Assembly (NCBI RefSeq): GCF_009735625.1
Contig: NZ_CP046244.1
Location: forward strand, 186,001 to 250,000
Source: Moorella glycerini
GTDB taxonomy: Bacteria > Bacillota > DSM-521 > Neomoorellales > Neomoorellaceae
Length of the DNA: 64,000 bases
Reading direction: 5' to 3'
Shown here: positions 1 through 58,188 of the stretch, one piece after another
How positions within the stretch are numbered: the first letter of the stretch is position 1
Layout of the letters: every line of letters starts with the position of its first letter
The notes under the pieces: generated by a model
Told to the model about the DNA's origin: nothing
The model's database searches: none
What the model saw: the letters and a program-made list of their open reading frames with translations, nothing else
Position numbers and translations under genes: made by a program

Positions 1-655
1 CAACCACTTCATCCTGGCCTGGTACCATTTGCTGGCTGGCGATCTGGGTTCTTATGCGCTCCAGGGCTATCAGAGCTTTTTCCAGGTTTGTACCGGGAAG
101 TATGACTAAAAACTCCTCCCCGCCGTACCGTATTACTTTATCTGCCGCGCGGAGCGCTTTCTTAATGATAAAAGCTGCGGCGCGTAAAACCTCATCCCCT
201 GCGTGATGGCCGAACTGGTCATTTACTGCCTTAAAATCATCCAGGTCCAGCATGGCGACGACCAGCGGTATTCCTTTTTCCTGCGCTTCTTTGAGCAAGT
301 GGTTGAGGATGGGATACATGGCGATCCTGTTGTATAATCCTGTCAGGGGGTCATGTTCAATGCGGTCTTTTAGCTGGAGAAGAAAAGTGTCGATAACTAC
401 CAGGATTTGCGCCAGGAATTCAGTAGCCCGGTCAATATATATCCACTGGACGGCATCGCTATCCCGCCTGATGCCCATCACTTCCCTCAGGGCACGGGTG
501 TGGATATCGAGGATGTTGGCTGCCTGCACATAATAATCATCCAGGTTGGCGGTCAAATCCTGGTAGGCCTCCAGCAGAACACCCTCTGCTCCACCCTCAC
601 ACACGTATCGTTCTAAATAGTTCCTGTAGGTATCGTAAAACGCTTCTGCAAGCAA
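1..655 (-). CDS. Diguanylate cyclase (GGDEF), stressosome output, partial
   Basis: This cytosolic enzyme makes cyclic di-GMP from two GTP. It is cut by the window edge, and 218 codons are visible. The first ~110 residues resemble the RsbU N-terminal domain that binds the RsbT switch kinase (AYQDLTANLDDYY region). A GGDEF domain follows, starting at DPLTGLYNR, with the active-site motif RYGGEEF and an RxxD product-inhibition site (RAAD) at the usual distance before it. The start is TTG at 655 behind GGAGGTGG; the stop of the upstream rsbX-like gene lies 2 bases away. It is the last gene of the rsbR-S-T-X operon, in the place where Bacillus carries the RsbU phosphatase, so RsbT probably activates this cyclase. 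Such a stressosome-controlled cyclase is described from Moorella thermoacetica. The C-terminus is not seen. Confidence 0.9.
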   Translation of the reverse strand, partial: MLAEAFYDTYRNYLERYVCEGGAEGVLLEAYQDLTANLDDYYVQAANILDIHTRALREVMGIRRDSDAVQWIYIDRATEFLAQILVVIDTFLLQLKDRIEHDPLTGLYNRIAMYPILNHLLKEAQEKGIPLVVAMLDLDDFKAVNDQFGHHAGDEVLRAAAFIIKKALRAADKVIRYGGEEFLVILPGTNLEKALIALERIRTQIASQQMVPGQDEVV

Positions 656-656
656 G

Positions 657-1268
657 TTACGGCCACCTCCTGCCCACAAGAACGCTGGCATCGTCTTCCG
701 CAATGCTGAACTCCTCAAGTATTGAGCATGTTAAACCAAAACCGTCATCTCGCCATAATTGCCGGGGCGAGTGACCCGGCAGGAAACTGCGCTTGATCCC
801 ATCTGAACAGACCAGCAGCATAGATTTATCATTTAATTGTATGCTCCGCATGGCAGGAAGGATTTTACGGCCCCCGACAATCCCGGCTTGCCCCGGGAGG
901 ATCTCGATCCTCGCCGGGTTAATTACCCAGCCACGTATATTGCCCACCAGGATGTAATCAAGAAAACACTCCCCCAGCATGCCCAGAAAAAGCGCGCAGC
1001 CTCGCGAGCGAAAGGCAGTTTGCTCTATGCGCCCGAATATCTCTAAGAGATTTTCTCCACCCGCTTCCAATTCCCGGCGGATTCCCTCTAAAGAACGGTG
1101 GGCCTCTTCCCCGTGTCCCAACACATCAACACAGGCCGCGAGAAGACCGCTCCTGCCCCCTTCGGCATAACAAAAATCCCCTCCGGCGATATATCCCCGG
1201 CGGGGCCGCCAGCAGGCCCAGATTTGCCAGCCGTTTCCTCCTGCCGTGCACCGGGATAACAGGGTCAA
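657..1268 (-). CDS. rsbX: RsbX-like PP2C (SpoIIE-type) phosphatase
   Basis: This is a small 203-residue PP2C/SpoIIE-family serine/threonine phosphatase without a sensor domain, as in RsbX. Visible metal-site motifs are GGDFCYAE near residue 30, VDVLGHG near residue 48 and a late CSDGI near residue 155. RsbX removes phosphates from RsbR and RsbS and so resets the stressosome after signalling. The start overlaps the rsbT stop by 4 bases, and the stop lies just before the GGDEF gene, so these genes are translationally coupled. The length matches the RsbX family. The assignment rests on motifs plus operon position. Confidence 0.87.
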   Translation of the reverse strand: MTLLSRCTAGGNGWQIWACWRPRRGYIAGGDFCYAEGGRSGLLAACVDVLGHGEEAHRSLEGIRRELEAGGENLLEIFGRIEQTAFRSRGCALFLGMLGECFLDYILVGNIRGWVINPARIEILPGQAGIVGGRKILPAMRSIQLNDKSMLLVCSDGIKRSFLPGHSPRQLWRDDGFGLTCSILEEFSIAEDDASVLVGRRWP

Positions 1269-3127: not shown

Positions 3128-3160
3128 GAAAGTGCAACAATTAAAAAACAAGTTTTCTCT

Positions 3161-3256
3161 ACCGCCAAGGGCAAACCCGCTCGAAAGACGGGGACGCAAA
3201 GCCACGGGCCTGGGTCTCATCTTTGAGATATGGCAGCCGGGCTGCCGGTAGGAAGC
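3161..3256 (+). promoter_or_regulatory. Cyclic di-GMP-I (GEMM) riboswitch
   Basis: The hallmark blocks of the GEMM aptamer appear in order: AGGGCAAACC, CTCGAAAG, GGACGCAAAGCCACGGGCC, then ATGGCAGCCGGGCTGCCG. The aptamer lies between a strong promoter and an intrinsic terminator hairpin, so it probably controls termination in response to c-di-GMP. The downstream gene is a PAS-HD protein, now broken. A diguanylate cyclase and an HD-GYP protein are encoded nearby. Confidence 0.93.
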
Positions 3257-3307: not shown

Positions 3308-3418
3308 ATTTAAGTACGGAGAAGGCCGGCGGCAGCCGGGTACGGGTTCCCTGGCAGCCCGGGGGAGGGAGTTAAAAAGGACCAGAGCGGGAGCCGAGTT
3401 GCCGAAAGGAGTTTTCTG

Positions 3419-4428
3419 TTGAAGGGCTCCTGGCCAGGGCCCTGGAAAGCCACGCCAGGGAACAGGAAATGCGCCTGGTGCTTGAGGAGTTGATTAATGT
3501 AGTAATTGCGGAGGCACCGGTGGGGCTGGCCTTTTTAAACCCCAAAGGCGAGATCTAGCATCTCAATTCCCTGGCGGCCCGGCTAATGAAAGACGCATCT
3601 TTAAACTGCGGCGAGTTAATGAGCATGGCCAATAATAGTGAAACGAAAACTGTCAGGGCCAACAACCGCAGTTATAAATTGTGGGTGGTCAAATCCGGCA
3701 AGGAAAAGGCGCCCGGGTACCTGGCGATTTTTGTCGATGTAACAACAGAGCAGCAGCTCGTGGAAAAGGTCAAATATGCCCAGCAGGAGGCCGAGCTGGC
3801 GCTGGCCACGCTGCTGCCTGACCAGCGGGTGGAGGTCAGGTTGCGGGCCATTGTGGAATACATGGATGAATATGACGCCTTAAGCGGGAAGATAAAAGTC
3901 ACCGGCGTGATCCGGGAAGGCGTGTACCGGCATGTAATAAATATCCTGCGCCTGATAGCCGAACTCTCCAAGCAGGGCCTCACCGAGCTGCCGGGGGTAG
4001 ATAAAGATATCCTGGTGCAGGCAGCGATATTCCACGACTTGGCCAAGGTGCAGCCCTACCTGCAACCGGGGGATGTGGTGGACCCGCGGGAAGCTTTTGA
4101 GCCCGGCTACCTGCACGCCTTTCGCAGCGCTTCCCTGGCCAGGGGGATCTACAACATAGATGAGAGGACCGTCAATCTTATAAAATATCACCACCACGAA
4201 GAAAATGACCTGCCGGAAGATTATCCCCTCTACCTGTTGCCCATGTACCGCCTCTTCCGGCTGCTGGACGGTTTATCGGCAGGTATCACCAGGAGGGGAT
4301 CCAGGGTAAAATTAACGACAAATGGAACACTCATTAACGTGAGGGAAGAAAGCTCCTTCCCCCTTTATAACCGGCATTTAGAGCTGGACCTATACTCCGG
4401 CAGGACGAGCATCAGACCGCTACTTTAA
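3419..4428 (+). pseudogene. PAS-HD signalling protein, interrupted by an in-frame TAG
   Basis: The reading frame encodes a PAS domain (EAPVGLAFLNPKGEI, then HLNSLAARLM) followed by an HD phosphohydrolase domain (FHDLAKV and later KYHHHEEN). An in-frame TAG at 3556-3558 falls inside the PAS domain, where a CAG to TAG change would explain it. Upstream, AAAGGAG is correctly placed for a TTG at 3419, but that TTG is one base out of frame with the protein, which suggests a lost base near the start (TTGGAAGGG to TTGAAGGG). The remaining 280-residue frame from ATG 3586 has no ribosome site and half a PAS domain. The gene lies downstream of the c-di-GMP riboswitch and was presumably its regulated output. 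Low-level readthrough is possible. Confidence 0.75.
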
Positions 4429-4622
4429 ATTTTTATAAAACAATCCTTACCCTTCCCTTGCCGGAGCTGTCCCGGAAAAATTTCCTTTTTTATTTGCACC
4501 TCATCGCCTACCAGGGTAATTGCTAAATAATCACCCGGCCGCCAGTCCAGTAATTTCCTTATTCTTGCCGGCAATCTAACCCGGCCTTTGTCGTCCAGGC
4601 AAACAGTTGGCAGGGATGACAT
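4425..4622 (-). CDS. AbrB/SpoVT-type swapped-hairpin regulator
   Basis: This 65-residue protein is a single AbrB-like DNA-binding domain (DDKGRVRLPARIRKLLDWRPGD), which dimerises as a swapped hairpin. The start is ATG with GAGGAGGT 10 bases upstream. It is the last gene of the chemosensory operon, 30 bases after the separate phosphotransfer gene, and its end overlaps the convergent broken PAS-HD frame by 4 bases. It could be a transition-state-type regulator or an antitoxin-like factor; no partner toxin is visible. Confidence 0.8.
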   Translation of the reverse strand: MSSLPTVCLDDKGRVRLPARIRKLLDWRPGDYLAITLVGDEVQIKKEIFPGQLRQGKGKDCFIKI

Positions 4623-4652
4623 TAAAACTTTACCTCCTCAATCTCTTCCCGG

Positions 4653-5516
4653 CTAAACATGCCACAGAGCCAGCTTGCGGAGGACCCGGCGCGCAACCGG
4701 GTCCCGGGCCCAGAGGAACCACCCGGCGGTTAAAGCTGCAGCCATGGCTTCAAGCGCTTCCAGATCAAGGTGCAATTTGTCCCCTGTAAACTCAAGGGCT
4801 ACCTTTTTCCCCCGGGAAGCCAGTTCCCGGGCCCTGGCTATCTTCGCCGGCCAGCCAGTACCGTCTATTTCTATCACGTGCCGGACATCGACCGTTACTA
4901 TATCCGGGTAACCTTCAATACATTCGTACAATTCACGTTCCCCTGCCTCGCTATCTATAACCGCCACCATGGTATCCGGTACTATTCTTTCACTTATGAG
5001 TTCTTCCGGACTGGGAATAGCATACTTGAGCTCTCCCATCTCCTCCAATCTCTTGAGGATGACAAAACTCCTGGCTCCCCGCATCTCGGAGGTGCGGTCA
5101 AGCACTACATCGACCAGGAACCTGCCGGTGCTCCTGCCTGCCTCACCTTGTACCAGCTCCAGCTCTGCGGCCAGCTGCTCATTATGGCAAAGTGGAGTGG
5201 CGTCCCCGCCTTCAGCGACTGCGAATATGAGGGAGCGCAGGACGTCGCTCGACTGCAGCAGCAGCCGGCAGGTATTCTCGCTTATTACCGCTTTGCCCTG
5301 CCTGATCTTATCCAGCAGGTTCTCCATTTTGTGGGCAAAGTCGGCGATATCTTTTAATCCCATGCAGGCTGCTGAACCTTTGAGAGTATGGACGATCCGG
5401 AAAATGGCATCCAGGGTTATGCTTTTCCCTGCATCGAGTTCCAGGAGAAGCTGCTCCAGCTGATCGAGCTGTTCCCGGGCCTCTTCTAAAAATACCTGCC
5501 TTAAGTCCGCGGCCAT
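4653..5516 (-). CDS. Free-standing Hpt (CheA P1-like) protein
   Basis: This 287-residue protein starts with an Hpt domain. The phosphoacceptor histidine lies in IVHTLKGSAACMG (about residues 42-54), with acidic DxxEQ helices around it. The rest (about 130-280) contains a ferredoxin-like region that may bind a response regulator, then an unassigned tail (VALEFTGDKLHLDLEAL). It lacks kinase, dimerisation and CheW modules. The neighbouring upstream gene encodes exactly those modules and has no Hpt domain, so the two probably form a split CheA in which phosphate passes in trans. The start ATG follows GGGAGG and lies 2 bases after the kinase stop. Confidence 0.85.
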   Translation of the reverse strand: MAADLRQVFLEEAREQLDQLEQLLLELDAGKSITLDAIFRIVHTLKGSAACMGLKDIADFAHKMENLLDKIRQGKAVISENTCRLLLQSSDVLRSLIFAVAEGGDATPLCHNEQLAAELELVQGEAGRSTGRFLVDVVLDRTSEMRGARSFVILKRLEEMGELKYAIPSPEELISERIVPDTMVAVIDSEAGERELYECIEGYPDIVTVDVRHVIEIDGTGWPAKIARARELASRGKKVALEFTGDKLHLDLEALEAMAAALTAGWFLWARDPVARRVLRKLALWHV

Positions 5517-5518
5517 CT

Positions 5519-6973
5519 TTACACCATTCCTCCCAGCACGCCGCCATTCAAAATCAGGGCGATTTCACCGCTGCCCAGCACCGCCGCACCGCTGAACAGG
5601 CTAATTCCTGCCAGTTGGGACGGTAAATTCTTGAGCACCACATCCTGCTCGCCGATGATTCTCCCCACTTCTATCGTCAACCCTCCCAGGAGCACCACCA
5701 GCACCATTTCGTCTGCCTCCCTGTTTCCTGCCTCCCCGCTCCCAAGCAACCGGCCGAGACGCAGGAGGGGATACAGCTTATCCCTAAGGGCCACGACTTC
5801 TTTATTTTTCAAGTGATGGATTTGATCTATCTTGACCCTGACTATCTCTTTAATTTCTCCCACAGGTATACCATAAAGGCCACCGCACTCCAGCAGCAAT
5901 ATTTTAGTAACACTCATTGTAACCGGTATTTCCAGCCTGGTTTCCGTCCCCTGGCCGGGCTGGCTCCAGATGCTTACCTTGCCTCCCAAACCCCGGACTG
6001 TCTCCCGCACCACATCCATTCCTACCCCGCGCCCGGATATTTCACCGGCGACTTCCCTGGTGCTGAAACCCGGGTGAAAGACCAGTTCCAGGGCTTCCTG
6101 GTAACTCATCTTCCCCGCCTGCTCTTCGCTGATCAGGCCCAGCCGCAGGGCCTTAGACTTCAACGCCCCCTCGTCAATGCCCCTGCCGTCATCCTTTACA
6201 GTAATAACCACGCGCTCCCCCCTTTTCCAGGCGGCAAGCTCTATTTCTCCTTCTTCCTCCTTACCCGCGGCCAGGCGTTCCGGGGGGAGCTCCAGGCCAT
6301 GGTCCAGGGCATTGCGCACCAGGTGCAGGAGGGGTTCATATATGGCCGCGGCTACATTGCGGTCGATGGTCACCTTATCTCCCCGGGTCTTTAAACGCGC
6401 TTTCTTTCCCAGGTCATGCCCCAGTTCCCGGATCACCCGCCGGAAGCGTTCAAAAACCAGCCCTACCGGCATCAGGCGCATTTCCATTACCGTATCTTGA
6501 AGGCCCCAGCTGGTGCGGGTAAGGGACGCCTGGTAGTCTTTTAATTCCCGGATAACCTCTACGGGTATACCCAGATTTTCCAGCCTCCGGATCAGGTAAA
6601 CCAAGCCGTTGCTGTTAATGATCAATTCTCCCGCCAGGGACAGGAGCCTGTTTATTTTCTCCTGCTCTACCCTGACGGTCTTAGCCCCGGACCAGCTTCT
6701 GGCAATATCGATCCCGGTTCCCGTTTCTTCCGGGCCGCCGCCCGCGCCCCTTTGAAAATCATCCAGGAACCGCCGCACCTCTTCCCGGGGGGCTTCATCC
6801 GCCAGGATAATCTCCATTTCAACAATTTGCCCCCCTTTACTTTTCAGCCCTATTCTTTCCAGCCAGCCCTTTTGTTCCAGGTTATATAACAGGGGCCAGG
6901 CATCCCGGCCGCACAGCTCATTGGGGCCGAGCTTTAATGCATTTTCCCGCCCGGAATTAAGAAGTTCCCTCAT
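5519..6973 (-). CDS. cheA: CheA-type histidine kinase core lacking Hpt
   Basis: From about residue 95 it contains the P3 dimerisation helices, the HATPase domain with N-box HLVRNALDHG, G1 DDGRGID and the FSTREVAGEISGRGVGMDVV lid region, then a C-terminal CheW-like domain. The first ~90 residues do not look like Hpt: no HxxKG motif is present. The phosphate-accepting histidine is supplied by the next gene. The ATG at 6973 is chosen over a GTG at 6985 because AAAGGGTGG is 8 bases from the ATG but touches the GTG. It overlaps the cheY-like gene by 17 bases. It acts in the cytoplasmic signalling array with the CheW and receptor proteins encoded upstream. Confidence 0.9.
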   Translation of the reverse strand: MRELLNSGRENALKLGPNELCGRDAWPLLYNLEQKGWLERIGLKSKGGQIVEMEIILADEAPREEVRRFLDDFQRGAGGGPEETGTGIDIARSWSGAKTVRVEQEKINRLLSLAGELIINSNGLVYLIRRLENLGIPVEVIRELKDYQASLTRTSWGLQDTVMEMRLMPVGLVFERFRRVIRELGHDLGKKARLKTRGDKVTIDRNVAAAIYEPLLHLVRNALDHGLELPPERLAAGKEEEGEIELAAWKRGERVVITVKDDGRGIDEGALKSKALRLGLISEEQAGKMSYQEALELVFHPGFSTREVAGEISGRGVGMDVVRETVRGLGGKVSIWSQPGQGTETRLEIPVTMSVTKILLLECGGLYGIPVGEIKEIVRVKIDQIHHLKNKEVVALRDKLYPLLRLGRLLGSGEAGNREADEMVLVVLLGGLTIEVGRIIGEQDVVLKNLPSQLAGISLFSGAAVLGSGEIALILNGGVLGGMV

Positions 6974-7352
6974 GATAAGTGCCACCCTTTAAACCGGCAA
7001 GGTGCAGGCAAGTTTTTTTAAGTTCCTCAGGGTCTACGGGCTTAACGAGGTAAAGATCCGCCCCGGCTTTATAGGCCGCCAGCCGGTCGTGAGGGCCGGC
7101 TTCGGTAGAGATCATAATAATACCCATAGATTGACCTCGCTCCGTCTTCCGGATCTCCTTGACCAGTTCGTACCCGTGCATGGATGGCATATTTACGTCG
7201 ACCAGCAGCACATCATAATCTGCAGCGCAGATCTTCTCCAGGCCCTCATAACCGTTAGCGGCAACGTCTACTGCAAAGCCGCAGCCCTGCAGCACTGCCG
7301 CGTGGTACGCCCGCACGGCACTGGAATCGTCCACAATCAAGACCTTGACCAA
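6957..7352 (-). CDS. CheY-like single-domain response regulator
   Basis: This is a 131-residue receiver domain. The acidic pair is DDSS at residues 8-11, the phosphoacceptor Asp is in LLVDVNMP (about residue 53), the switch Ser/Thr is in MISTEA and the conserved Lys is in VKPVDP. No output domain is fused. With no flagellar genes nearby, its target need not be a flagellar motor. The start is TTG, with GGAGG 8 bases upstream. Confidence 0.88.
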   Translation of the reverse strand: MVKVLIVDDSSAVRAYHAAVLQGCGFAVDVAANGYEGLEKICAADYDVLLVDVNMPSMHGYELVKEIRKTERGQSMGIIMISTEAGPHDRLAAYKAGADLYLVKPVDPEELKKTCLHLAGLKGGTYHEGTS

Positions 7353-7371
7353 CGCCGACGCCTCCAGGGTC

Positions 7372-8175
7372 TTACTTTTGATAAATTATCGCGTTGTTAA
7401 ACCTGACTGGTTTGAACAAGGTGGTGATGCGGCTCATGGATTCGGAATGGCCGAGAAAAATATACCCGCCCGGTTCCAGGGTCTGGTAAAAATGGAGGGC
7501 CACCCGCCGCCGGGAAATGTCATCAAAATAGATCAAGACATTGCGGCAAAATATGGCATGGTAATTGCGCATGACCTGCATGGCCGCGTCATCAACCAGG
7601 TTAACCTGATAAAATTTAATGCGGGACTTTAAAATGGACTTCACAGCATAGTTATCCCCCAGGCGGGTGAAATACCGGTCTAAATAAGCAAGGGGTACCT
7701 GCCTGATGGCATAATAGTTATATACGCCCCTTTCCGCCCTGCCCAGGACTTCCGTATTTATATCGGTGGCGTGGATTTCCCAGGCCATGCCGGCAGCCAT
7801 CTCCTGCATGATGATGGCCAGGGTATAGGCTTCTTCCCCGGAAGAGCAGCCGGCACACCAGATCTTCACGCCCCGCCGCCTCCCGCCGTTGCCGGCCCAG
7901 AGAGATATCACCTCTTCCGCCAGGCATTTTAACTGGTCGTACTCGCGGAAGAAATAGGTTTCATTTACGGTAAGGGCGTTTAAAAGTTCCTGCCGCATCT
8001 TACCCGCGGCATCAAAGCGCAGGGCTGCCAGGTAAGCCGTAAAGTCCCGCATGCCGTGTTTTTCCATCTGCTGTTGGATGCGTTTTTCTACGTAATACTT
8101 CTTTTCGTCTTCAAAATAAATGCCCGTCTCCCGGTAGATGTATTCCCTTATCTTCTCGAACTCAGACCGGTTCAT
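7372..8175 (-). CDS. cheR: Chemoreceptor glutamate methyltransferase CheR
   Basis: CheR uses S-adenosylmethionine to methylate receptor glutamates. At 267 residues it has the N-terminal helical domain (about 1-75, LTVNETYFFRE at its end) and the C-terminal SAM-binding domain with WCAGCSSGEEAYTLA, an ATDINTEVL motif, and CRNVLIYFD. The start overlaps the HEAT-repeat gene by 14 bases. CheB is encoded two genes upstream, so the cluster has a complete adaptation pair for the receptor at the head of the operon. Confidence 0.95.
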   Translation of the reverse strand: MNRSEFEKIREYIYRETGIYFEDEKKYYVEKRIQQQMEKHGMRDFTAYLAALRFDAAGKMRQELLNALTVNETYFFREYDQLKCLAEEVISLWAGNGGRRRGVKIWCAGCSSGEEAYTLAIIMQEMAAGMAWEIHATDINTEVLGRAERGVYNYYAIRQVPLAYLDRYFTRLGDNYAVKSILKSRIKFYQVNLVDDAAMQVMRNYHAIFCRNVLIYFDDISRRRVALHFYQTLEPGGYIFLGHSESMSRITTLFKPVRFNNAIIYQK

Positions 8176-8797
8176 TCAGGTATTCTTCACCCTCTACCTG
8201 CTGGCTCTCCATGCTGGCCTGTAACTGTTGCAAAGTTTTTGTAGCTATAAATTCCATGTAGGGGTGCCGGAAACGCTGCCTGCAGCTCTCAACCAGGGGC
8301 CTGTCTCCCGGCCTCCCCAGTTCGCCGATATATTCCAGCGCCGCGCAGGCGACGTTAATATCCTCCTCCCGCTGCACGACCTGCCTGAGCAAGTCCAGGC
8401 TGCCGCTATACCTGCTCCTGCCCAGCACATGGACCGCCAGGACGCGCACGTCCCGGTCGCCGTCCTGCAGCAGCTGCTCCAGAACCCCGGCGGCCCTATC
8501 CTCAACCTTGCACGTTAAAATTTCCAGGGCCAGGCTCCTGGAGGTGGGATCATCGCTTTTAAGCAGGGGCGCGACTTCTTGCACTACCTCTCCGGCGTCG
8601 CATAAAAGCAGGGAACCCATAATCGCCTCGCGGACTACTGCCTCTTGTTCCCGCTGCAGGGCCTTAACTAGTATCGCCGCCGTTCCCCCGGCTCCCCAGC
8701 TACCCAGCCGGCAGGCGGCGTTGAGGCGTTCTGCCCTGTCCGGTGACGATTCTAAGGCTTCTACCAGGGAGAAATACTCTTTCGCGGTTACTCTCAA
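8162..8797 (-). CDS. HEAT-repeat scaffold protein in the chemosensory operon
   Basis: This 211-residue all-helical protein consists of PBS-lyase-like HEAT repeats (for example AACRLGSWGAGGTAAILVKAL, DVRVLAVHVLGRSRY and NVACAALEYIGELGR). No catalytic residues are seen. Such repeats normally hold protein partners. It lies between cheB and cheR with an 8-base gap on one side and an overlap on the other, so it is probably a partner of this array. The start is a TTG with GGGGGG about 11 bases upstream, and it is the weakest start in the operon. Confidence 0.8.
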   Translation of the reverse strand: MRVTAKEYFSLVEALESSPDRAERLNAACRLGSWGAGGTAAILVKALQREQEAVVREAIMGSLLLCDAGEVVQEVAPLLKSDDPTSRSLALEILTCKVEDRAAGVLEQLLQDGDRDVRVLAVHVLGRSRYSGSLDLLRQVVQREEDINVACAALEYIGELGRPGDRPLVESCRQRFRHPYMEFIATKTLQQLQASMESQQVEGEEYLNEPV

Positions 8798-8804
8798 GGC
8801 TTAT

Positions 8805-9854
8805 TCATCCCCCCACCTTCTGCTTGATAATGTCCGCAATTTTGTAGCTGGGCGCAACCACACTGGCTCCCCCGCGCTCTATGGCCGCCCGGGGCATTCC
8901 CCATACCACCGCCGTTTCTTCACTTTCCGCAATGGTAAACCCTCCCCGCCGCCGCAATTCCAGCATAGCGTCGGCGCCGTCGTCCCCCATACCGGTCAGG
9001 AGCACTCCTATGATACGGTCGGGAACAAAGCACTCCATGGCTGCCTGCAGGGTTACATTGACCGACGGCTTAAAAGCCGTATTTTCCGGGCTGGAGGACA
9101 GGTGACAGCATAGCTTCTCGTTCATGTTCAAGAAGAGCAGGTGATAGCCGCCCCTGGCGATAACCGCCATGCCCGGCTCAACGGGCAGGCCTTCACCGGC
9201 TTCTTCCACCCTGAAGGGGCAATGCTGGTTAAAGCGGCTAGCCAGGCTGGCAGTAAAGCGCGCCGGCATATGCTGGACCACCACCACGCCCGCCTGTAAG
9301 CCGGCCGGTAACTGCGGCAGGATATCTTCCAGGGTCCTGGGACCGCCTGTAGATACGCCGATCACTACCAGCCAGTCCATTTTATTGACACTATGAAAGC
9401 CATGCGGCTTTTTCCTGGCCGGCGCCGTCCATCTCCTGGCACCTCGCCGCACCCTGGCTCGCGCTGCGGCCCGCACTTTGCTGACGATCTCACCGGCAAG
9501 CCTGTTTATGCCCAGGGAAACGGTCCCGTCAGGCTTGGCGACAAAGTCAACAGCACCTAATTCCAGGGCCTCAAAGGTAGCCAGGGCGTCCTCCTGGGTG
9601 AGAGAAGAGATCATCACTACCCGCGCCTGCGTCCCGGTCACTATGTAATGGAGGGCGGTCAAGCCATCCATGCCTGGCATATTAATGTCTAAAGTTACCA
9701 CATCCGGCTGGAGCAGCAGTGCCTTTTCGACGCCTTCCAGCCCGTCCCGCGCTACATCTAGCACCTCTATGTCCCCGGCCGTTTCAAGGATCTGCCGCAA
9801 CACCCGGCGCATAAAAGCCGAATCATCGACAATCAGGACTTTTATCCGCTTCAA
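8805..9854 (-). CDS. cheB: Chemotaxis methylesterase/deamidase CheB
   Basis: This is a 349-residue two-domain CheB. The receiver domain (1-120) has DDSAFMR, phosphoacceptor DINMPGMDG and KPDG. The methylesterase domain (about 160-345) has the catalytic Ser in GVSTGGPRTL, the His in VVQHMP and the Asp in TGMGDDGAD. When phosphorylated it removes methyl groups from receptors and so counters CheR. The start is TTG, with GGGGTGA upstream. Confidence 0.95.
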   Translation of the reverse strand: MKRIKVLIVDDSAFMRRVLRQILETAGDIEVLDVARDGLEGVEKALLLQPDVVTLDINMPGMDGLTALHYIVTGTQARVVMISSLTQEDALATFEALELGAVDFVAKPDGTVSLGINRLAGEIVSKVRAAARARVRRGARRWTAPARKKPHGFHSVNKMDWLVVIGVSTGGPRTLEDILPQLPAGLQAGVVVVQHMPARFTASLASRFNQHCPFRVEEAGEGLPVEPGMAVIARGGYHLLFLNMNEKLCCHLSSSPENTAFKPSVNVTLQAAMECFVPDRIIGVLLTGMGDDGADAMLELRRRGGFTIAESEETAVVWGMPRAAIERGGASVVAPSYKIADIIKQKVGG

Positions 9855-9878
9855 TTTGCATTTTTCACCCCGCCTGCG

Positions 9879-11375
9879 CTACGCCTGCCACCCATCATCC
9901 CCCATTAGCACCCTGGCCGCATCCAGGATAATAACGTTCCTTCCCTTTTCTAATTTAGCAATGCCGCTGACGCAGGGGCGTTCCCCGCCCGGCTGGGATA
10001 TGCCCGGAGGTGCTGCCTCGATCTTGCTGGCCAGTATTTTTAAAACCTCTCTCACACCGTCAACCATTAATCCTACAACTGAACCATTGCCCTCGCAGAT
10101 CAGGATGCGGTCCTGCTCGTCGGGGGGTCTTTCCGGGTAGGCAAAGCGCCTTCTTAAGTCGATTACCGGTACTATGCTGCCGCGCAGGTTGAAGATACCC
10201 CTTACAAAGGAACGGGTACCAGGAACGGCAGTAATGTGGCCGGCGCGGATTATTTCCCGCACGCTCTTTATTGGCAGGGCAAATTCCTCTTTGCCCAGCT
10301 CAAAGGTGACCAGTTGATACTCCTCTTCATGGTAGCGCCTGCGGCCAACTGCCGCTGCGTCCCCTCCGGACTCTACTCCGGTTAAAAAAGAAACATCTCC
10401 CAGCAATTTTTCGGAATCTAATACAAACACCATCCGCTTTTCGCCCAGACGGCATACTGCCGCTATCTCCCCGGCACCCTGGCGTAAGATAGCAGGCACC
10501 GGCTCCATGGACCGCTCGTTCACCCGCAGCACTTCCGCCAGGCTGTCCACTACGATGCCGGCGGTAACTTTTTTCCCCTGGCCGGCATAAGCCACTATCA
10601 CCCGCCCTCCGGGCGCCTGGCTATCTCCCAATCCGAAGACTCTTCTCATGCTGATGAGGGGTAAAACCTGGTCACGCAGGGAAATCAGTCCCAGGACGTA
10701 GGGGGGAGCTTCGTGAAGGGCATTCCATTCCTCCGGCAGGTGGACGATTTCCTTCACATCAGCTATATTCAAAGCATACTCTTCGCCGCCGACCCGGAAA
10801 ATCAACAGTTGTTGCTCGCTTTCCTGAACCTTATTGGCCCTGCCTGCCTCTCTTTCCTCCCCGGCTTCATAATGCCCGTTGCCGTTGCCCGCAGCCAAGG
10901 TAGCCAGGGCCGGCCCGGCCATTTCCGCTATCATGCCGGCCATATCCACCAGCAGGACCAGCCTACCCTCACCTATCCGGGCTGCCCTGCTCACATAACT
11001 CCCGCCTGCCGTTCCTTCCCGGAACTCTTCGATGGCCTCTGCCGGGATATCCATTACTCCTTCAATGCGGTCGACGATAAAGCCGGCCTGGCGGCCGCCG
11101 GCAGTCACCACAATGACCCGGCTGTTTTCGTCAGCCGAGGTGCTCTCGAGCCCCATCTTCATGCGGGTATCGTATACGGTAAGGATGGTCCCGCGGAGGT
11201 TGGCAAGCCCCCGGATATAGGGAGGGGTCATGGGCACCCTGACTACCGCAGGAACCCTGATAATTTCCTGCAGGTGATCGATGACTATGCCATAACTTTC
11301 CGGGCCCAATTTAAAAACAACATATTGCCCGGTTTTACTACCAACTGCTACATCTCCGTCTTCCCGAACTCGCAC
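9879..11375 (-). CDS. Triple-CheW coupling protein
   Basis: The 498 residues hold three CheW domains in tandem, at about 15-155, 185-325 and 350-490. Each shows the CheW pattern of a short beta-rich entry, an R/G-N/S-LRG or SLRD core (RGLANLRGTILTVYD, LGLISLRDQVLPL, RGIFNLRGSIVPVID), and a DxxxGV or DGV close. Ordinary CheW has one domain. A trivalent coupler could bind several kinase and receptor tips and tighten or branch the array. The first linker is rich in Gly/Glu. The start is GTG behind GGAGGAGGG, 31 bases after the receptor gene. Confidence 0.9.
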   Translation of the reverse strand: MRVREDGDVAVGSKTGQYVVFKLGPESYGIVIDHLQEIIRVPAVVRVPMTPPYIRGLANLRGTILTVYDTRMKMGLESTSADENSRVIVVTAGGRQAGFIVDRIEGVMDIPAEAIEEFREGTAGGSYVSRAARIGEGRLVLLVDMAGMIAEMAGPALATLAAGNGNGHYEAGEEREAGRANKVQESEQQLLIFRVGGEEYALNIADVKEIVHLPEEWNALHEAPPYVLGLISLRDQVLPLISMRRVFGLGDSQAPGGRVIVAYAGQGKKVTAGIVVDSLAEVLRVNERSMEPVPAILRQGAGEIAAVCRLGEKRMVFVLDSEKLLGDVSFLTGVESGGDAAAVGRRRYHEEEYQLVTFELGKEEFALPIKSVREIIRAGHITAVPGTRSFVRGIFNLRGSIVPVIDLRRRFAYPERPPDEQDRILICEGNGSVVGLMVDGVREVLKILASKIEAAPPGISQPGGERPCVSGIAKLEKGRNVIILDAARVLMGDDGWQA

Positions 11376-11405
11376 CTGTCACCCTCCTCCGGGCCTGTAG
11401 ATATC

Positions 11406-13337
11406 TCAACCCTGCTGCAATTCGTCCGCCATGGCCGCTATTTCTTCTATGGCCTGGGCCAGTTCTTTCATGCCTTCCGCCTGCTGGCGGCTGGCCGTGG
11501 CCGCTTCCTGGGCGGCGCTGCTGGCTTCCTGGGCAGCGGTAGCAATCTGCTCGATACCCCGGGCTGCTTCTTCAACTTTTAGGAGACTTTGATCGGCCTG
11601 GGATTTTACTTCTTCCATACCCTTCAATACTGCCCCCATATCATTATCTATCAAATCCAGGTTAAGTGCCGTTTTTTGCGCCTCCTCCGCCTCTTTACGG
11701 ATGACGTCGCCGATGTTGGTGATATCATGCAAAACGTTCATTACCTGTTCCTGGATGCCTTTTACCATCTCTTTGATTTGCTCGGCGTTACGGGCGCTTT
11801 CCTGGGCAAGATTGCGTATGTCCGAAGCGACAACGGCGAAACCTTTGCCGTATTCCCCGGCCCGTGCCGCCTCAATGGCGCCGCTCACGGCCAGCATATT
11901 GGTCTGGATGCTCACGCTGGCTATAGTGTCCACTATCTTGTCGATCTGGCGCGCGCTCCGCTCGAGCTGGTTAACTTTATGAACGTTTTCCAGGTTTGTG
12001 GTGGCCGCCTGGGAAATGCCGGTGATTAGTTCCTTTACCCTTTCTTTGTTGGCGGCCAGGAGTTCACTCAATTCCTGTACCTGTTGCCTGGAATTCCCGG
12101 CTTCACCGGCCGTTAACTGCATGGCTTTTTCTATCTGCTTGATGGCGCTGGCGGATTCCTCCGAAGCAGCAGCCTGGGTCTCGGTGCTGCCGGCAATCTG
12201 GTTTAAAGCCGCTTCAATTTCTCCGGCCGACCTGCTGGCTTCCTCGATGGCGGCCGATAGCTCTTCAGCAGCAGCCGCCAGCCCTTCGGCCGATTTGACA
12301 ATATCCGTTGAGCTTCTCAGCTCGTCCGCCAGATCGGCCAGGTTGGCAGTGCTGCTCCTGATTTCCGTTAAAGCCCGGGCCTGCTGCTCTATACCCTGCA
12401 GCGCCTGCTCTGCGGCGCTGGCCTGTTCTTCCGCTGTAGCTGCTATCTGCTCGCTGCCCTTTTGAAATTCGCTTATGGCTTTGTCCGCTTCGTTAACCAT
12501 GCGGTCAATGTTCACGGCGCCTTCTATTATGCGATTTACGGCTGCCTCTATTTTTTTCAATTCTATAGTTATCTCTTTTCCTTTCTCTGTTTCGCCCCTG
12601 GCAACTTCGGCCGCCCTGTTAATGGCCCCGGCTACTATCCTCACATCCTCCTGGATGCTGTTTACAATTTGCCGGATGTCGCTGGCCGCTTTTTCAGAAG
12701 TCTCGGCCAGGGTCCTGACTTCGTCCGCCACTACGGCAAAACCTCGCCCGTGCTCTCCCGCCCGCGCGGCTTCAATAGCGGCATTGAGGGCCAGCAAATT
12801 TGTCTGCTCGGCAATCCTGACCACCGTACGGACAATCTCGCCAATCCTGGCCGCTTCTTCTTCCAGGCGAGCTACCAGACGGGCCGATTCCTCACTGCGC
12901 GCCGCCGCGTCATTGACCCCGCGCACCAGCCCTTCAATGTCCGTTGAAGTGGTGTTGATAAGCGAGCCAATTGCTTTGCAACGTTCCAAGGAGGTCCCGA
13001 CCTGCTTCACCGCCTGTCGGGCACCATCGCCGATTACCTGAATAGCCGCCAGGGACTGCTGGGTAGCACTGCTGGCTTCCTGGGCGCCGCGCGCGATCTG
13101 CTCCATGGCCGCCCGCAATTCCTCCACCGCGCTGGAAGCCTCTTCCACGCCGGATGACAGCTGCTCACTGGCGCTGGCTATCCTTTCAGCCATTTGTTGC
13201 TGCTTGGCATGGGTCCTAGCCTGCCGGCGCCGCGCCTCCAGTTCCTTCCTCTCCGTCAATCTTGTTATGTTGCTCTTGGGCGCTTCATAAACCCCCTTCT
13301 TTTCCCCGGGCAGGGGTTCCAGTGTTTTTTGTTCCAT
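11406..13337 (-). CDS. Soluble chemoreceptor with two signalling tips
   Basis: This is a 643-residue cytoplasmic methyl-accepting protein with no membrane helix, HAMP or ligand domain. It is nearly all coiled coil. Two separate hairpin tips are present: [20 protein letters not shown] (about residue 185) and [20 protein letters not shown] (about residue 490), each flanked by heptads rich in Ala, Glu and Gln with EEQASAAEQ-type possible methylation sites. One protein thus carries two CheW/CheA contact points, as if two receptors had fused. What it senses is unknown. ATG has AGAGGAGGT upstream, and this is the first gene of the operon. Confidence 0.88.
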
Positions 13338-13431
13338 AAAAAGATACCTCCTCTTTAAGATTAAACCATACTTATTGTTTTTTTTGTATTATTTATTAAT
13401 ATCTGCTTCACCCACACGTTTTAAAAACCGG

Positions 13432-14067
13432 CTATCTAGTTTCTTTCCCTATCTTTTGCGTCAAATAGGCCGCTATATCGGCATCCAGCCTGCCGTGATA
13501 CGCCTCCTGGAGAATAATGTCCAGGGCCTGCCGGGGTGTAAGGGCGCCGCGGTAGGGCCTCGGACTCACCAGGGCGGAAAAAACATCTGCCACGGCCAGA
13601 ATCCTGCCTGCCAGGGTAATGGCGCTGCCCCTGGCGCCAGCGGGATATCCCGAACCATCCAGGCGCTCATGATGCTCTATGCAGGCTTGAACGACCCGCC
13701 CTTCATAATGATAATGTTTTAAAATTTCTGCGGTGTAGCGAACATGGAGCTGCATGGCCTGCCTTTCCCGGGGGCCGAAAAACCGGTTTGAATGCAGGAG
13801 TTCGGGTGCTATGTGGAGCTTGCCTATATCATGCAATACGCCTGCTTCATACAGCCAGCTCCTATCCGCAATAATTCCCATCGCTGTCGCTATTTCCGCC
13901 GCCACCTCACCTACTTGGAGGCTGTGAACTGCTGATACTTCGTCCAGGGCGTATAATTGCGACAGCAGGTACCTGGTTGTCGGCGACAGCTCAGTACCAA
14001 ATGATGTAGAGGGTTGCGCGCCAGGATATGCCTTTGTCATCCCCACTTTATCCCCATATCTAGACAT
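13432..14067 (-). CDS. HD-GYP domain protein, probable c-di-GMP phosphodiesterase
   Basis: This is a 211-residue HD-GYP protein. The metal-binding HD pair is in LHDIGKL and the signature HHERLDGSGYP is complete, followed by LAVADVFSAL. These are the residues of active c-di-GMP or related cyclic dinucleotide phosphodiesterases. About 30 residues precede the domain and show no sensor fold. The start is uncertain, because an ATG nine codons in is equally possible and neither has a good ribosome site. It lies 94 bases upstream of the receptor gene on the same strand and may be co-transcribed. Confidence 0.85.
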   Translation of the reverse strand: MSRYGDKVGMTKAYPGAQPSTSFGTELSPTTRYLLSQLYALDEVSAVHSLQVGEVAAEIATAMGIIADRSWLYEAGVLHDIGKLHIAPELLHSNRFFGPRERQAMQLHVRYTAEILKHYHYEGRVVQACIEHHERLDGSGYPAGARGSAITLAGRILAVADVFSALVSPRPYRGALTPRQALDIILQEAYHGRLDADIAAYLTQKIGKETR

Positions 14068-14515
14068 CTGTAATTATGGATACCGTGATAGCCATCACGC
14101 CCATGTATTTTTAAAAGTCCTATCCTGGTAAAAAAAAACTCTTTATAATTAGAGAAAAGGGCCTCCCTTGCCTTTTTCTCTAATAATAAAGAGTAAACCA
14201 CGAAGACAAGGATATCTTAAAAACACAACTATTTGGACCCCTAACTGACCTTAATCTTTACGATGTTATTTTTTAGTAATAATTACTATTTTTAACTTAT
14301 GATAACCAACTTTTGCTTGTTTTATATTTCTATTGTATTTTGGCCCGGATAAAATTCAATGCGGAAATTGTTCTTTTTAAACCGGCTACGCTAAATTTTG
14401 TCTTTCATCGACGAGAAGACGCTCTTTCTCTTACATTATGTATTGTTTTTTTCTTTTTTTAGACACACTGTCGTATTAATAAAGAAAACTTACTACGTAT
14501 CACGGAGGATTAAAA
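14068..14515. other. AT-rich divergent intergenic region
   Basis: This 448-base stretch separates the HD-GYP gene and the SinR-like gene. It is much richer in A+T than its neighbours and holds a long inverted repeat, listed separately. No gene or RNA family is recognised. It should contain both divergent promoters. Confidence 0.6.
14138..14194. repeat. Long near-perfect inverted repeat (about 23 bp arms)
   Basis: The arms at 14138-14160 and 14171-14194 begin ACTCTTTAT and end ATAAAGAGT; they match at about 22 of 24 positions around a 10-base loop. No T-run suits a terminator on either strand. It could be an extended operator, a transcript-stabilising hairpin or a tiny MITE-like element. Confidence 0.6.
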
Positions 14516-14893
14516 ATGAAATCAAAACTGGGAGCCAGGCTCCGCTATTACCGAACGAAACGCTATCTGACATTAAGGCAGGTTGAAGACCTGACCGGCC
14601 TCCATTCCACTACTATTTCAAGTTATGAACGCGGGACACGCGAACCTTCTCAAGAAACGCTGCGCATTCTGGCTAAGGCCTATAATATCCATGTGGCTTA
14701 TCTCCTACTGGATGAAGCCGAGATAAACCGTCTCCTGGAGGAAAAAGAGGACAATTTAGCGGTAGTTATCAACCAGCGCCCTGAAATCGCCGAGCTAGTA
14801 AATGAGCTAACAGAGCTCCAGCCCCCGGCCATAAAGGCCCTGGTGAATTTCATAAAACACGTGAAGCAGTCCTGGCAACCCCGGGATACCTAA
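14516..14893 (+). CDS. XRE/SinR-type HTH regulator
   Basis: This 125-residue protein has an N-terminal Cro/CI-type helix-turn-helix (about residues 5-60: LRQVEDLTGLHSTTISSYERGTREPS). Its C-terminal ~60 residues are helical and probably dimerise, ending LVNFIKHVKQSW in the manner of SinR-like proteins. The start is ATG with GGAGG 8 bases upstream. It is a single gene followed by a terminator and sits in an AT-rich island. Confidence 0.85.
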   Translation: MKSKLGARLRYYRTKRYLTLRQVEDLTGLHSTTISSYERGTREPSQETLRILAKAYNIHVAYLLLDEAEINRLLEEKEDNLAVVINQRPEIAELVNELTELQPPAIKALVNFIKHVKQSWQPRDT

Positions 14894-14901
14894 AATAAAA
14901 G

Positions 14902-14939
14902 CCCGCCCGGCATTTTGCTGCCAGGCGGGTTCATTTTTT
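14902..14939. terminator. Bidirectional terminator between the HTH gene and thrS
   Basis: An 11-bp stem (CCCGCCCGGCA against TGCCAGGCGGG, one mismatch) is followed by TTCATTTTTT on the plus strand and flanked by A-rich sequence on the other side. It serves the convergent genes. Confidence 0.8.
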
Positions 14940-14949
14940 AACAAAGGTT

Positions 14950-16851
14950 TTACTCCCGCCGTCTAATCTCTCCGGTTACCCTGTCGATAAAGGCCCGGAG
15001 GGGGACGCTACCCGTATCCCCGGCGCGGCGTTCCCTGACGGCTACGGTACCCTCGGTTGCTTCCTTATCACCTACCACCAGCATGTAAGGGATTTGTTCC
15101 AATTGGGCGGTGCGGATCTTATAGCCGATTTTATCATTGCGGTCGTTGACTTCGGCCCGGATGCCGGCCCGCACCAGTTCTTCCCTGACCTTGAAGGCAT
15201 AGTCGTTGTGGCGGTCGGTAATGGGCAGTACTCGCACCTGCACCGGGGCCAGCCAGACGGGGAAGGCGCCGCCGTAATGCTCGATTAAGATGCCGATGAA
15301 ACGTTCAATGCTGCCAAAGACGACCCGGTGAATCATGACCGGCCGGTGCCTCTGGCCATCCTCCCCGATGTAGTGCAGGTCAAATTTCTCGGGCATAAGG
15401 AAATCCAGCTGAATGGTGCCGCACTGCCAGGTCCGGCCCAGGGAATCCTCCAGGTGGAAATCGATCTTGGGACCGTAGAAGGCGCCGTCACCTTCATTAA
15501 CCACATAGGGCATCCCCTTGGCCTCCAGGGCCTGGCGCAGGGCGCCTGTGGCCGTTTCCCAGATCTCATCGGAACCCATGGCGTTATCCGGCCGGGTGGA
15601 GAGCTCGACGTGGTATTTAAAGCCAAAGAGGCGGTAAAAGCGGTCTACCAGGTCGATAACCCCCTGGATTTCGGCCGTGATCTGGGAGGGCAGCATAAAG
15701 ATATGAGCGTCGTCCTGGGTAAAGGCCCGCACCCGCATCAGGCCGTGGAGGACGCCGGATTTCTCGTGGCGGTGCACCAGGCCCAGTTCGGCCAGGCGTA
15801 AAGGCAGGTCGCGGTAGCTGTGTTGCTCTGTTTTATAGACCAGGATGGCCCCGGGGCAGTTCATGGGTTTGATGGCGTAGTCGGCCTCATCAATCCTGGT
15901 AAAGTACATGTTTTCCCGGTAGTGGTCCCAGTGGCCCGACTGCTCCCACAGGGAGCGGCTCAATATCACCGGCGTGCGGATCTCCAGGTAACCGGCCTTG
16001 CGGTGCTCTTCCCGCCAGAACTGCTCCAGCTCGTTGCGGATAATCATACCCTTAGGATGGAAAAAGGGGAAACCCGGCCCTTCTTCATGAAGGCTGAAAA
16101 GGCCCAGCTGCGCCCCCAGCCGCCGGTGATCCCGTTTTTTCGCCTCTTCCAGCCGGTGGAGGTAGTCTTCCAGGTCTTTAGCCTTAGGGAAGGCGGTACC
16201 GTAAATCCGCTGCAGCATAGGGTTGGCCTCGCTGCCGCGCCAGTAGGCCCCGGCCAGGCTGGTGAGCTTTATTGCCTTGAGGTAGCCGGTGCTGGGCAGG
16301 TGGGGCCCGGCGCAGAGGTCCAGGAAGTCGCCCTGGCGGTAGGTGCTGATGGGTACCCCTTCCGGCAGGTCGTTGATGAGCTCGATCTTATAGGGTTCAT
16401 TGAGCTGGCGGAAAATTTCCAGGGCCTCGTCCCGGCTTATTTCCTGCCGTTCCAGGGGCAGGTCGGCTTTAATGATTCTTTGCATTTCCGCCTCAATGGC
16501 GTTTAAGTCCTCGGGGGTAAATTTATGCTCGCTGTCGAAGTCGTAGTAAAACCCGTCGGTTATAGCCGGGCCGATACCCAGCCTGGTCCCGGGGAACAGG
16601 TGCTTGACGGCCTGGGCCAGGACGTGGGCCGCCGTATGGCGATAGGCCAGGCGCCCGCCCTCATCGGCAAAGGTCAAGAGCTCCAGCCGGCACTGCTCCG
16701 GCAAAGGACGGGTAAGGTCCCATACTTCGCCATCAACCCGCGCCGCCAGGGCCTCCCGGGCGAGTTTCGCTGAAATGTCCCTGGCCACCTCCAGGGCCGT
16801 AGTACCGGCTGCATATTCCCTCACGCTGCCGTCCGGTAAAGTTACCTGCAT
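14950..16851 (-). CDS. thrS: Threonyl-tRNA synthetase
   Basis: ThrRS charges tRNA-Thr. At 633 residues it has the full layout: TGS domain (about 1-60), the editing domain with HTAAHVLAQAVKHLFP and later DLCAGPHLPSTG, the class II catalytic core (KPMNCPGAILVYK, RAFTQDDAHIF) and the anticodon-binding domain (PVQVRVLPI onward). The start chosen is the ATG of MQVTLPDGS, because AGGAGG lies 9 bases upstream of it while ATGs further out have no spacing from it. Expression is under a T-box leader. Confidence 0.97.
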   Translation of the reverse strand: MQVTLPDGSVREYAAGTTALEVARDISAKLAREALAARVDGEVWDLTRPLPEQCRLELLTFADEGGRLAYRHTAAHVLAQAVKHLFPGTRLGIGPAITDGFYYDFDSEHKFTPEDLNAIEAEMQRIIKADLPLERQEISRDEALEIFRQLNEPYKIELINDLPEGVPISTYRQGDFLDLCAGPHLPSTGYLKAIKLTSLAGAYWRGSEANPMLQRIYGTAFPKAKDLEDYLHRLEEAKKRDHRRLGAQLGLFSLHEEGPGFPFFHPKGMIIRNELEQFWREEHRKAGYLEIRTPVILSRSLWEQSGHWDHYRENMYFTRIDEADYAIKPMNCPGAILVYKTEQHSYRDLPLRLAELGLVHRHEKSGVLHGLMRVRAFTQDDAHIFMLPSQITAEIQGVIDLVDRFYRLFGFKYHVELSTRPDNAMGSDEIWETATGALRQALEAKGMPYVVNEGDGAFYGPKIDFHLEDSLGRTWQCGTIQLDFLMPEKFDLHYIGEDGQRHRPVMIHRVVFGSIERFIGILIEHYGGAFPVWLAPVQVRVLPITDRHNDYAFKVREELVRAGIRAEVNDRNDKIGYKIRTAQLEQIPYMLVVGDKEATEGTVAVRERRAGDTGSVPLRAFIDRVTGEIRRRE

Positions 16852-16954
16852 AATAGCCATCCTCCTCTGAATCATGCATAAATCCTTTGCTACTTATCAA
16901 AACCCTTACCTGGCCGGACTCTACCGGCAGGCCAGGAAATCCCCTTACCCCCGC

Positions 16955-17194
16955 AAAAAATAAAAACCCTCGTCCCTCAAAAGGGACGAGAGTTCTTCCC
17001 GTGGTTCCACCCTTCTTCAGGGGATATGCTCCCCCCTCCAAAGCTGATAACGGTAGCCAGCCGGCCGGGCTTACTCGTTATTCAGCCCGGCAGCTCCGGA
17101 GTGGTCCGGCTCCCTGCCATCGCCCGGGACGCTTCCAGCCGCGGCATCCCTCTCTGGTGAGCAGTTCAGGGGCCTCTTCTCCTTCTTCGCCGTT
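16955..17194 (-). promoter_or_regulatory. T-box leader of thrS
   Basis: The minus strand shows the conserved T-box sequence AGGGTGGAACCACGG (16998-17013), followed by a terminator stem CTCGTCCC/GGGACGAG and a T-rich tail. The upstream part holds a stem I with an AGAGAGG motif. The most likely specifier is in GGACCACTCC near 17100, where both ACC and ACT are threonine codons. Uncharged tRNA-Thr should favour read-through into thrS. Confidence 0.93.
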
Positions 17195-17200
17195 AGGTAC

Positions 17201-58036: not shown

Positions 58037-58056
58037 TCATTGACCCTGCCACGCCG

Positions 58057-58172
58057 CATCTCCTTTCCGAGCAAGGGAGGCAGGCCCGTTTCCCGGCCTA
58101 CCCCGTGGGTAATGCGACCCAGGCCGGTGTCCCATAGGCTGGCAGCCCTTAGGTAACACCGGCTCGGAGATG
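58057..58172 (-). promoter_or_regulatory. Probable Moco (molybdenum/tungsten cofactor) riboswitch
   Basis: The closing stem CATCTCC/GGAGATG brackets a GC-rich multi-helix RNA whose 3' side reads GCCTCCC...CTCGGAAAGGAG, which resembles the 3' part of the Moco motif found before E. coli moaA. It precedes a molybdate/tungstate transporter operon that ends in Moco genes. The assignment is from remembered consensus and position; structure was not computed. Confidence 0.7.
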
Positions 58173-58188
58173 GTATTTAATTTATTTC

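Follow-up and report, generated by a model that had tools for sequence, protein, structure and literature searches.

What might a chemosensory array control when its genes lie next to those for turnover of the second messenger cyclic dimeric guanosine monophosphate (c-di-GMP)? We take up this question for a run of che genes at positions 4425-14067 of a 64,000-nucleotide stretch of the Moorella glycerini genome (hereafter the window). An earlier note on this DNA had placed Che proteins, a HEAT-repeat protein, an AbrB-type protein, and an HD-GYP protein together in this interval, which open reading frame (ORF) calls and Pfam confirm, and had proposed that the array may control c-di-GMP or development instead of motility. 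By its signature genes DosM and CheW3, we assign the operon to the F9 class of chemosensory systems. With moderate confidence, we favor the reading that this F9-class system, whose CheA is bipartite, belongs to a c-di-GMP signaling island and feeds c-di-GMP turnover together with a stressosome. The split and reversed CheA, the two signaling modules of the receptor, a riboswitch at 3160-3250, and a cyclase gene straddling the window edge are points that go beyond the earlier note.

Ten minus-strand genes fill the interval. Since they all lie on one strand, with gaps of 94 bases at most and several overlaps, a single transcript is likely. The first gene in the direction of transcription (13432-14067; Pfam HD_5, 6.5e-32) encodes a protein of 211 amino acids (aa) without a receiver domain, which is predicted to be an HD-GYP phosphodiesterase: its HDIGK and HHERLDGSGYP motifs are intact, it carries the full signature HD...HDxGK...HHExxDGxGYP, and its PDB matches are HD-GYP phosphodiesterases. 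It is followed by a DosM-type soluble chemoreceptor of 643 aa with two tandem signaling hairpins (11406-13337; MCPsignal, 6.9e-67 in three stretches), CheW3 with three concatenated CheW domains in 498 aa (9879-11375; Pfam CheW, 1.3e-107, also in three stretches), CheB with receiver and methylesterase domains (8805-9854; Pfam, 3.2e-57 and 2.7e-21), the HEAT-repeat protein (8162-8797; HEAT_2, 1.1e-17), the methyltransferase CheR (7372-8175; 1.6e-56), and CheY, a single receiver domain (6957-7352; 5.3e-29). The run continues with a CheA core of dimerization, kinase, and CheW domains that lacks Hpt (5519-6985; Pfam, and PDB CheA at 1e-76 over residues 102-481), the CheA P1 and P2 domains as a protein of their own with a C-terminal alpha/beta tail of uncertain fold (4653-5516; Hpt, 3.6e-20; P2, 3.3e-13), and finally a small MazE/AbrB-type DNA-binding protein (4425-4622; MazE_antitoxin, 4.5e-08).

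We rejected this last protein as a demonstrated part of the system; among the loci examined, an AbrB-like gene follows P1-P2 only in M. glycerini and in G012 (genomes are given by our own G numbers and loci by L numbers). The helix-turn-helix gene of the window was likewise rejected as a demonstrated part, a similar gene lying near in G055 and G017. Nothing we found speaks for AbrB as a target of the array or for a role in development, both of which had been suggested before. Between the divergent HD-GYP and helix-turn-helix genes lies a long, near-perfect inverted repeat (14137-14195), possibly a regulator site or a terminator.

A receptor with tandem double signaling domains (DosM) and a triple CheW (CheW3) are each described as unique to F9-class systems (PMC9321776; this and all further papers are cited for the passages available to us), and the window operon encodes both. 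The F9 trait of coexisting with another chemosensory class and with flagella is likewise found in the M. glycerini genome. The signaling tips of DosM, each reading EAARAGE, lie near residues 189 and 489, exactly 300 residues apart, and nine DosM sequences including this one align over their full length with both tips conserved. AlphaFold predicts an all-helical protein made of long helices (predicted local distance difference test, pLDDT, 89.5); in the literature, the two hairpins of DosM are reported to point apart. Pfam finds no sensor domain, and there is no obvious membrane segment. DosM also holds 13 methylation-like motifs. An MCP2 profile gave no match against plasmids, and a profile scan of the wider genome-contig collection returned distant CheA only.

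The CheA of the operon is bipartite, as Hpt is encoded apart from the dimerization-kinase-CheW core within the same operon, and its pieces stand in reverse order relative to a normal CheA, with the core first and P1-P2 second. This reversal argues against a broken gene, and since the split is also conserved in ten other genomes, a frameshift or stop as its cause was rejected. His43 of the Hpt domain is invariant in ten aligned P1-P2 sequences (this one included), and a structure model of P1-P2 matches CheA P1 and P2 structures. Of 398 genomes from the phylum, 11 have a P1-P2 frame of ~300 residues standing by itself; eight of these, M. glycerini among them, match closely (E at most 9e-69) and three more distantly (E ~1e-28 to 1e-30), after exclusion of four of the 15 genomes matched at 1e-22, as their matches were ordinary long CheA frames. 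By our reading of the gene listings, 45 F9 loci surveyed below have a bipartite CheA in 17 cases and a canonical one in 19, with nine left unassigned; in one locus listing, several CheW3 proteins of ~500 aa carried the label of CheA without Hpt and were read as CheW3.

The order DosM-CheW3-CheB-HEAT-CheR-CheY-CheA recurs across several families and is kept up to and including P1-P2 in G010, G012, G017, G055, G133, and G240, while G003 has all these operon genes spread over two contigs. In G350, the CheA core, which lacks Hpt, carries CheY as an N-terminal fusion (L079:8019-10334). Within the genus, the operon has a patchy distribution: 7 of the 10 other members yield only ordinary CheA matches. 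At the site of the window, G010 has a remnant composed of DosM and a 73-residue piece of CheW3. In a second F9 copy of G010 (L045, L080; G010:C1 ~1127190-1131610), DosM is interrupted by a two-ORF insertion resembling an insertion sequence.

On its downstream side, the run adjoins genes that tie it to c-di-GMP. The stressosome genes occupy 657-2882 on the minus strand, adjoining the che run as the earlier note had said, and follow the order expected of a stressosome operon: RsbR-type STAS protein (2115-2882; Pfam STAS, 2.5e-16), RsbS (1742-2143; Pfam STAS, and PDB RsbS at 1.8e-24), RsbT-type kinase (1265-1738; HATPase_c_2, 4.7e-11, conserved together with its neighbors), and RsbX-type phosphatase (657-1268), the last named for its position and its orthologs beside RsbT, as its SpoIIE match of 0.09 falls below the Pfam cut-off. 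They are followed by a diguanylate cyclase gene (1-691, minus strand; 274 aa) that crosses the left window edge, its last ~133 bases lying outside; Pfam GGDEF matches at 8.4e-48 (genome 185885-186358). On the plus strand, a c-di-GMP-I riboswitch aptamer (3160-3250) and then a predicted terminator hairpin precede a PAS/HD gene (3412-4428), whose PAS label is our reading of the sequence, Pfam having given only CBS and HD. The aptamer matches RF03167 at 3161-3250 with 67.4 bits (gathering threshold 59; E 9.1e-14), our own covariance model at 3160-3249, and RF01051 also above its gathering threshold; it is one of seven c-di-GMP-I riboswitches in the genome.

Relatives share this setting to varying degrees. 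RsbT was found in 8 of the 12 genomes tried (the 11 with a split CheA plus G004); it adjoins the che run in G000, G017, G055, G133, and G240 and the remnant in G010, with ~5 kb of GGDEF-EAL, GGDEF, and FapA-family genes separating the two in G017. The most complete case is G133, where fifteen genes in one direction, with gaps of up to 262 bases, read RsbR, RsbS, RsbT, RsbX, GGDEF, PAS/HD, HD-GYP, DosM, CheW3, CheB, HEAT, CheR, CheY, CheA core, and P1-P2. G240 has the same arrangement with GGDEF in two frames, and in G350, GGDEF and HD genes lie beside the che run and RsbR is present as a fragment only. In G166 (L148, G166:C7:33489-53488; positions 830-1700 and 4112-16900), a different F9 subtype seems to have taken the place of the F9 operon at a stressosome-cyclase-HD locus; a HEAT gene with a high score against the HEAT profile and a CheB-like fragment are left downstream.

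To what extent does this linkage hold across the phylum? At E 1e-60 or better, 41 of the 398 genomes contain DosM-like frames, and our survey covered 45 loci from 40 of these genomes in windows of ~20 kb. It omitted G306, whose DosM spans two frames, as well as the second copies of G289, G333, and G353; further DosM copies in G118 and G319 lie inside the windows used. The controls were 40 windows at arbitrary coordinates, which are not random draws, and 20 more around flagellar-type CheA. Because of contig ends, 8 of the 45 F9 windows are shorter than 14.5 kb and 6 of the 40 arbitrary ones shorter than 15 kb. A gene for a c-di-GMP enzyme (GGDEF, EAL, or HD-GYP) was detected by profiles in 24 of 45 F9 windows (the count for the M. 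glycerini window excluding its cyclase), compared with 2 of the 40 arbitrary windows and 1 of the 20 around flagellar-type CheA, although the profiles were built from proteins of the surveyed loci and favor the F9 set. For that reason we recounted with plain motifs, obtaining 24/45, 2/40, and 2/20, respectively. The F9 windows are not independent, stemming from 28 genera and 19 families, whereas the Fisher values computed for these counts presuppose independence. Counted by genus, such an enzyme appears in one window or more for 16 of 28, and the figure is 15 of 28 when each genus contributes a single window. HD-GYP lies directly upstream of DosM on the same strand at eight of the 45 loci (M. 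glycerini, G012, G055, G133, G240, G370, G129, and G094). A stressosome (RsbT with RsbS/R) is present in eight F9 windows, from families f1, f37, f39, and f52, and in none of the 60 controls.

The recurrence in several families suggests that F9 arrays help to set the c-di-GMP level instead of steering the cell, and the earlier proposal of a nonflagellar c-di-GMP role thus gains from the linkage to c-di-GMP enzymes and stressosome genes, as well as from the separate flagellar che set described below. The mechanism we envisage is as follows. DosM and CheW3 would build a cytoplasmic two-layered array, by analogy with Vibrio cholerae, and input would probably come through a partner receptor or protein, as Pfam recognizes no sensor domain in DosM. 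The array would drive the CheA core, which would phosphorylate the separate P1-P2 protein in trans; P1-P2 would pass the phosphate to CheY and CheB, and CheB and CheR would tune DosM through methylation. CheY or the array itself may then alter the c-di-GMP level, most simply via the presumably co-transcribed HD-GYP protein, as the neighborhood suggests. The stressosome would control the neighboring cyclase and hence synthesis, opposing breakdown by HD-GYP, and riboswitches would read the resulting level.

Several observations weigh against this interpretation, beginning with the sampling limits of the survey just given. No c-di-GMP enzyme gene was found in 21 of the 45 F9 windows; HEAT and CheY are missing in G001 and G084; G003, G012, G084, and G350 have no RsbT match; and the PAS/HD gene of M. 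glycerini itself is decayed, with homology from 3412, the CBS region missing, an in-frame stop at 3556-3558, and an open part at 3586-4428, compared with frames of 420-487 residues in most relatives having the gene. The proposed array layout rests on analogy, and HD-GYP is a candidate target of CheY by its neighborhood. To these we add the flagellar neighborhood in G001 and the riboswitches of flagellar loci, both of which bear on the alternative discussed next.

This alternative, which we consider unlikely although it survives better than the others, is that of a second array modulating flagellar motility, either because its CheY joins the flagellar CheY pool or because the two arrays exchange parts. 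The F9 operon of G001, a copy whose CheY and HEAT genes are lost and whose CheA is interrupted by a stop, has flgK at a distance of ~6 kb and the flagellar cheW-cheA-cheB genes at ~8 kb. Directly upstream of the G017 operon stands a gene of the FapA family (flagellar assembly protein A in Pfam). The earlier note had named flagellar neighbors in related genomes as one observation that would speak against it, and these two cases bear this out in part; no flagellar gene was recognized beside the operon in the other loci compared, where many neighbor genes lack an identification. Flagella are also reported for 97% of F9 species (PMC9321776).

Riboswitches point in the same direction, as they occur near F9 and flagellar che genes alike. 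In G001, G003, G010 (at both copies), G017, and G192, a c-di-GMP-I riboswitch directly precedes DosM, separated from it by short ORFs at most. Others precede the run headed by HD-GYP in G129, the HEAT gene in G068, and, at a distance of a single 123-residue ORF, the second F9 copy in G017. Several of these riboswitches are followed by terminator-like hairpins. Since 14 of the 20 flagellar-CheA windows also hold a c-di-GMP riboswitch (arbitrary windows, 0 of 40), such control is not special to F9; c-di-GMP appears to gate both F9 and flagellar arrays. Upstream of the HD-GYP-DosM run of M. glycerini, searches with Rfam and our own model found no riboswitch, and a riboswitch-like match upstream of HD-GYP in G012 was too weak, at 27 bits, to be counted. 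Two relatives carry tandem c-di-GMP-I riboswitches upstream of DosM (L080:8331-8901 and L165:5341-5910). The flagellar region of M. glycerini has two c-di-GMP riboswitches (L047:4523-4611 and genome 2235550-2235648); a receptor gene follows one of them and a flgB-like gene the other.

On the other hand, M. glycerini has a separate flagellar che set at ~2.19-2.265 Mb, comprising CheW, CheA, CheB, CheD, CheR, CheC, and CheY together with FlgK and FlhA; CheC and most of the other flagellar names here are readings of the sequences. The flagellar CheA, a 713-residue frame, lies at 2.198 Mb and FlhA at 2.253 Mb. Only two CheA were found in the genome, this one and that of the window, so that flagellar chemotaxis has no obvious need of the window system. 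The window operon, moreover, is neither within nor beside flagellar genes in its own genome. The absence of flagellar genes noted earlier holds for the annotated ~1-19 kb of the window, although the genome itself does carry such genes. In V. cholerae, deletion of the F9 CheA had no detectable phenotype under standard conditions (PMC7534058). In short, the window array is probably not a controller of the flagellar motor. As an aside, the flagellar CheC-like gene reads in two frames and may be broken (L050:13244-13899).

A further alternative, rather improbable in our view, is that the neighborhood mostly reflects chance or old hitchhiking: F9 and stressosome genes would have moved together, or would share a region rich in regulatory genes, with no joint function. 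Frequent horizontal transfer is reported for F9 clusters (PMC9321776); F9 systems without an adjacent stressosome exist in G001, G003, G012, and G084; and G004 keeps at the site of the window a stressosome, an HD gene, and thrS but no che genes. Against this stand the controls, with their 0 of 60 for the stressosome and 2 of 40 and 1 of 20 for c-di-GMP enzymes. In addition, the stressosome-cyclase-HD locus of genus g112 carries two F9 subtypes, that of G133 and, in the same arrangement, the one with an undivided CheA in G166. Finally, G335, from another family, has RsbR-S-T downstream of DosM-CheW3 in a different layout.

A stronger version of the favored reading, in which F9 array and stressosome form one machine acting on the same c-di-GMP pool, with P1-P2 and its maybe STAS-like tail as the movable link, is a long shot. 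The tail has a weak Pfam STAS_2 match (0.024) in the M. glycerini sequence and none in two others, no profile match to RsbS, and fold-search matches that barely cover it. That the locus is decaying or silent in M. glycerini is very improbable, given that all ten genes of the run are open and the key motifs looked at are kept, even though the neighboring HD gene is broken and F9 copies are damaged in the relatives G001, G010, and G084.

Returning to the c-di-GMP island, we can compare its parts with described systems. F9 arrays of V. cholerae are purely cytoplasmic, two-layered, and stabilized by DosM, with unclear function (PMC7534058), and the role of the class is described as elusive or undiscovered (PMC7534058, PMC9321776). 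Cluster I of V. cholerae (DosM VC1403, CheW3 VC1402, CheA VC1397) shares the double-signaling-domain receptor and triple CheW (PMC9321776, PMC7534058) and, judged by locus numbers, the order of these three genes. As far as the descriptions allow the comparison, the M. glycerini operon differs in its split CheA, in having no partner receptor in the operon, and in the adjoining HD-GYP, riboswitch, and stressosome genes. Bipartite CheA with a core lacking Hpt and an Hpt gene in the same operon, as here, was described by Berry et al. (PMC10542144); compared with their cases, the second protein here holds P1, P2, and an extra tail. Rhodobacter sphaeroides has two proteins, CheA3 and CheA4, that jointly serve as a CheA within a cytoplasmic cluster (PMC10542144), but CheA3 contains a CheW domain and an extended degenerate middle region, neither of which Pfam finds in P1-P2. 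The HEAT protein OE2401F of Halobacterium lies in a che region and is needed for taxis (PMC2666748); it is archaeal, however, and interacts with CheD and OE2402F (CheF), its likeness to the window protein being the HEAT repeats.

For the stressosome, a close precedent comes from Moorella thermoacetica, where an RsbT homolog acts on a downstream diguanylate cyclase (PMC4976288); here, too, a cyclase gene follows RsbX. The window RsbS is probably not the ortholog of the M. thermoacetica protein, as it matches the structure of the latter (3zxn, 59 bits) less well than its best RsbS entry (6qcm, 89 bits). The stressosome of Vibrio vulnificus is linked to c-di-GMP and motility and has a downstream c-di-GMP module and a downstream two-component pair; in the available text of PMC10014275, no chemosensory array is mentioned and the word chemotaxis is absent. 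While the F9 class and the split CheA are thus known in print, we found no report in the open-access literature that connects F9 or DosM to a stressosome or to c-di-GMP enzymes, and none of this combination in such a setting.

Because c-di-GMP enzymes, riboswitches, and stressosome genes recur beside them, F9 arrays gain a concrete candidate output that can be tested, and single-locus systems, some of which apparently form one transcript (G133), are suited to testing it. If the favored reading is true, two large stress-responsive assemblies, stressosome and chemosensory array, are joined in one pathway. Should even the one-machine version hold, F9 arrays in general, including cluster I of V. 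cholerae, may be stress-to-c-di-GMP converters and not navigation devices.

Elsewhere in the window, we noted a T-box upstream of thrS (16979-17196), a molybdenum cofactor riboswitch (58044-58181), and a group II intron (61555-63360) whose reverse transcriptase is encoded at 61625-63046.

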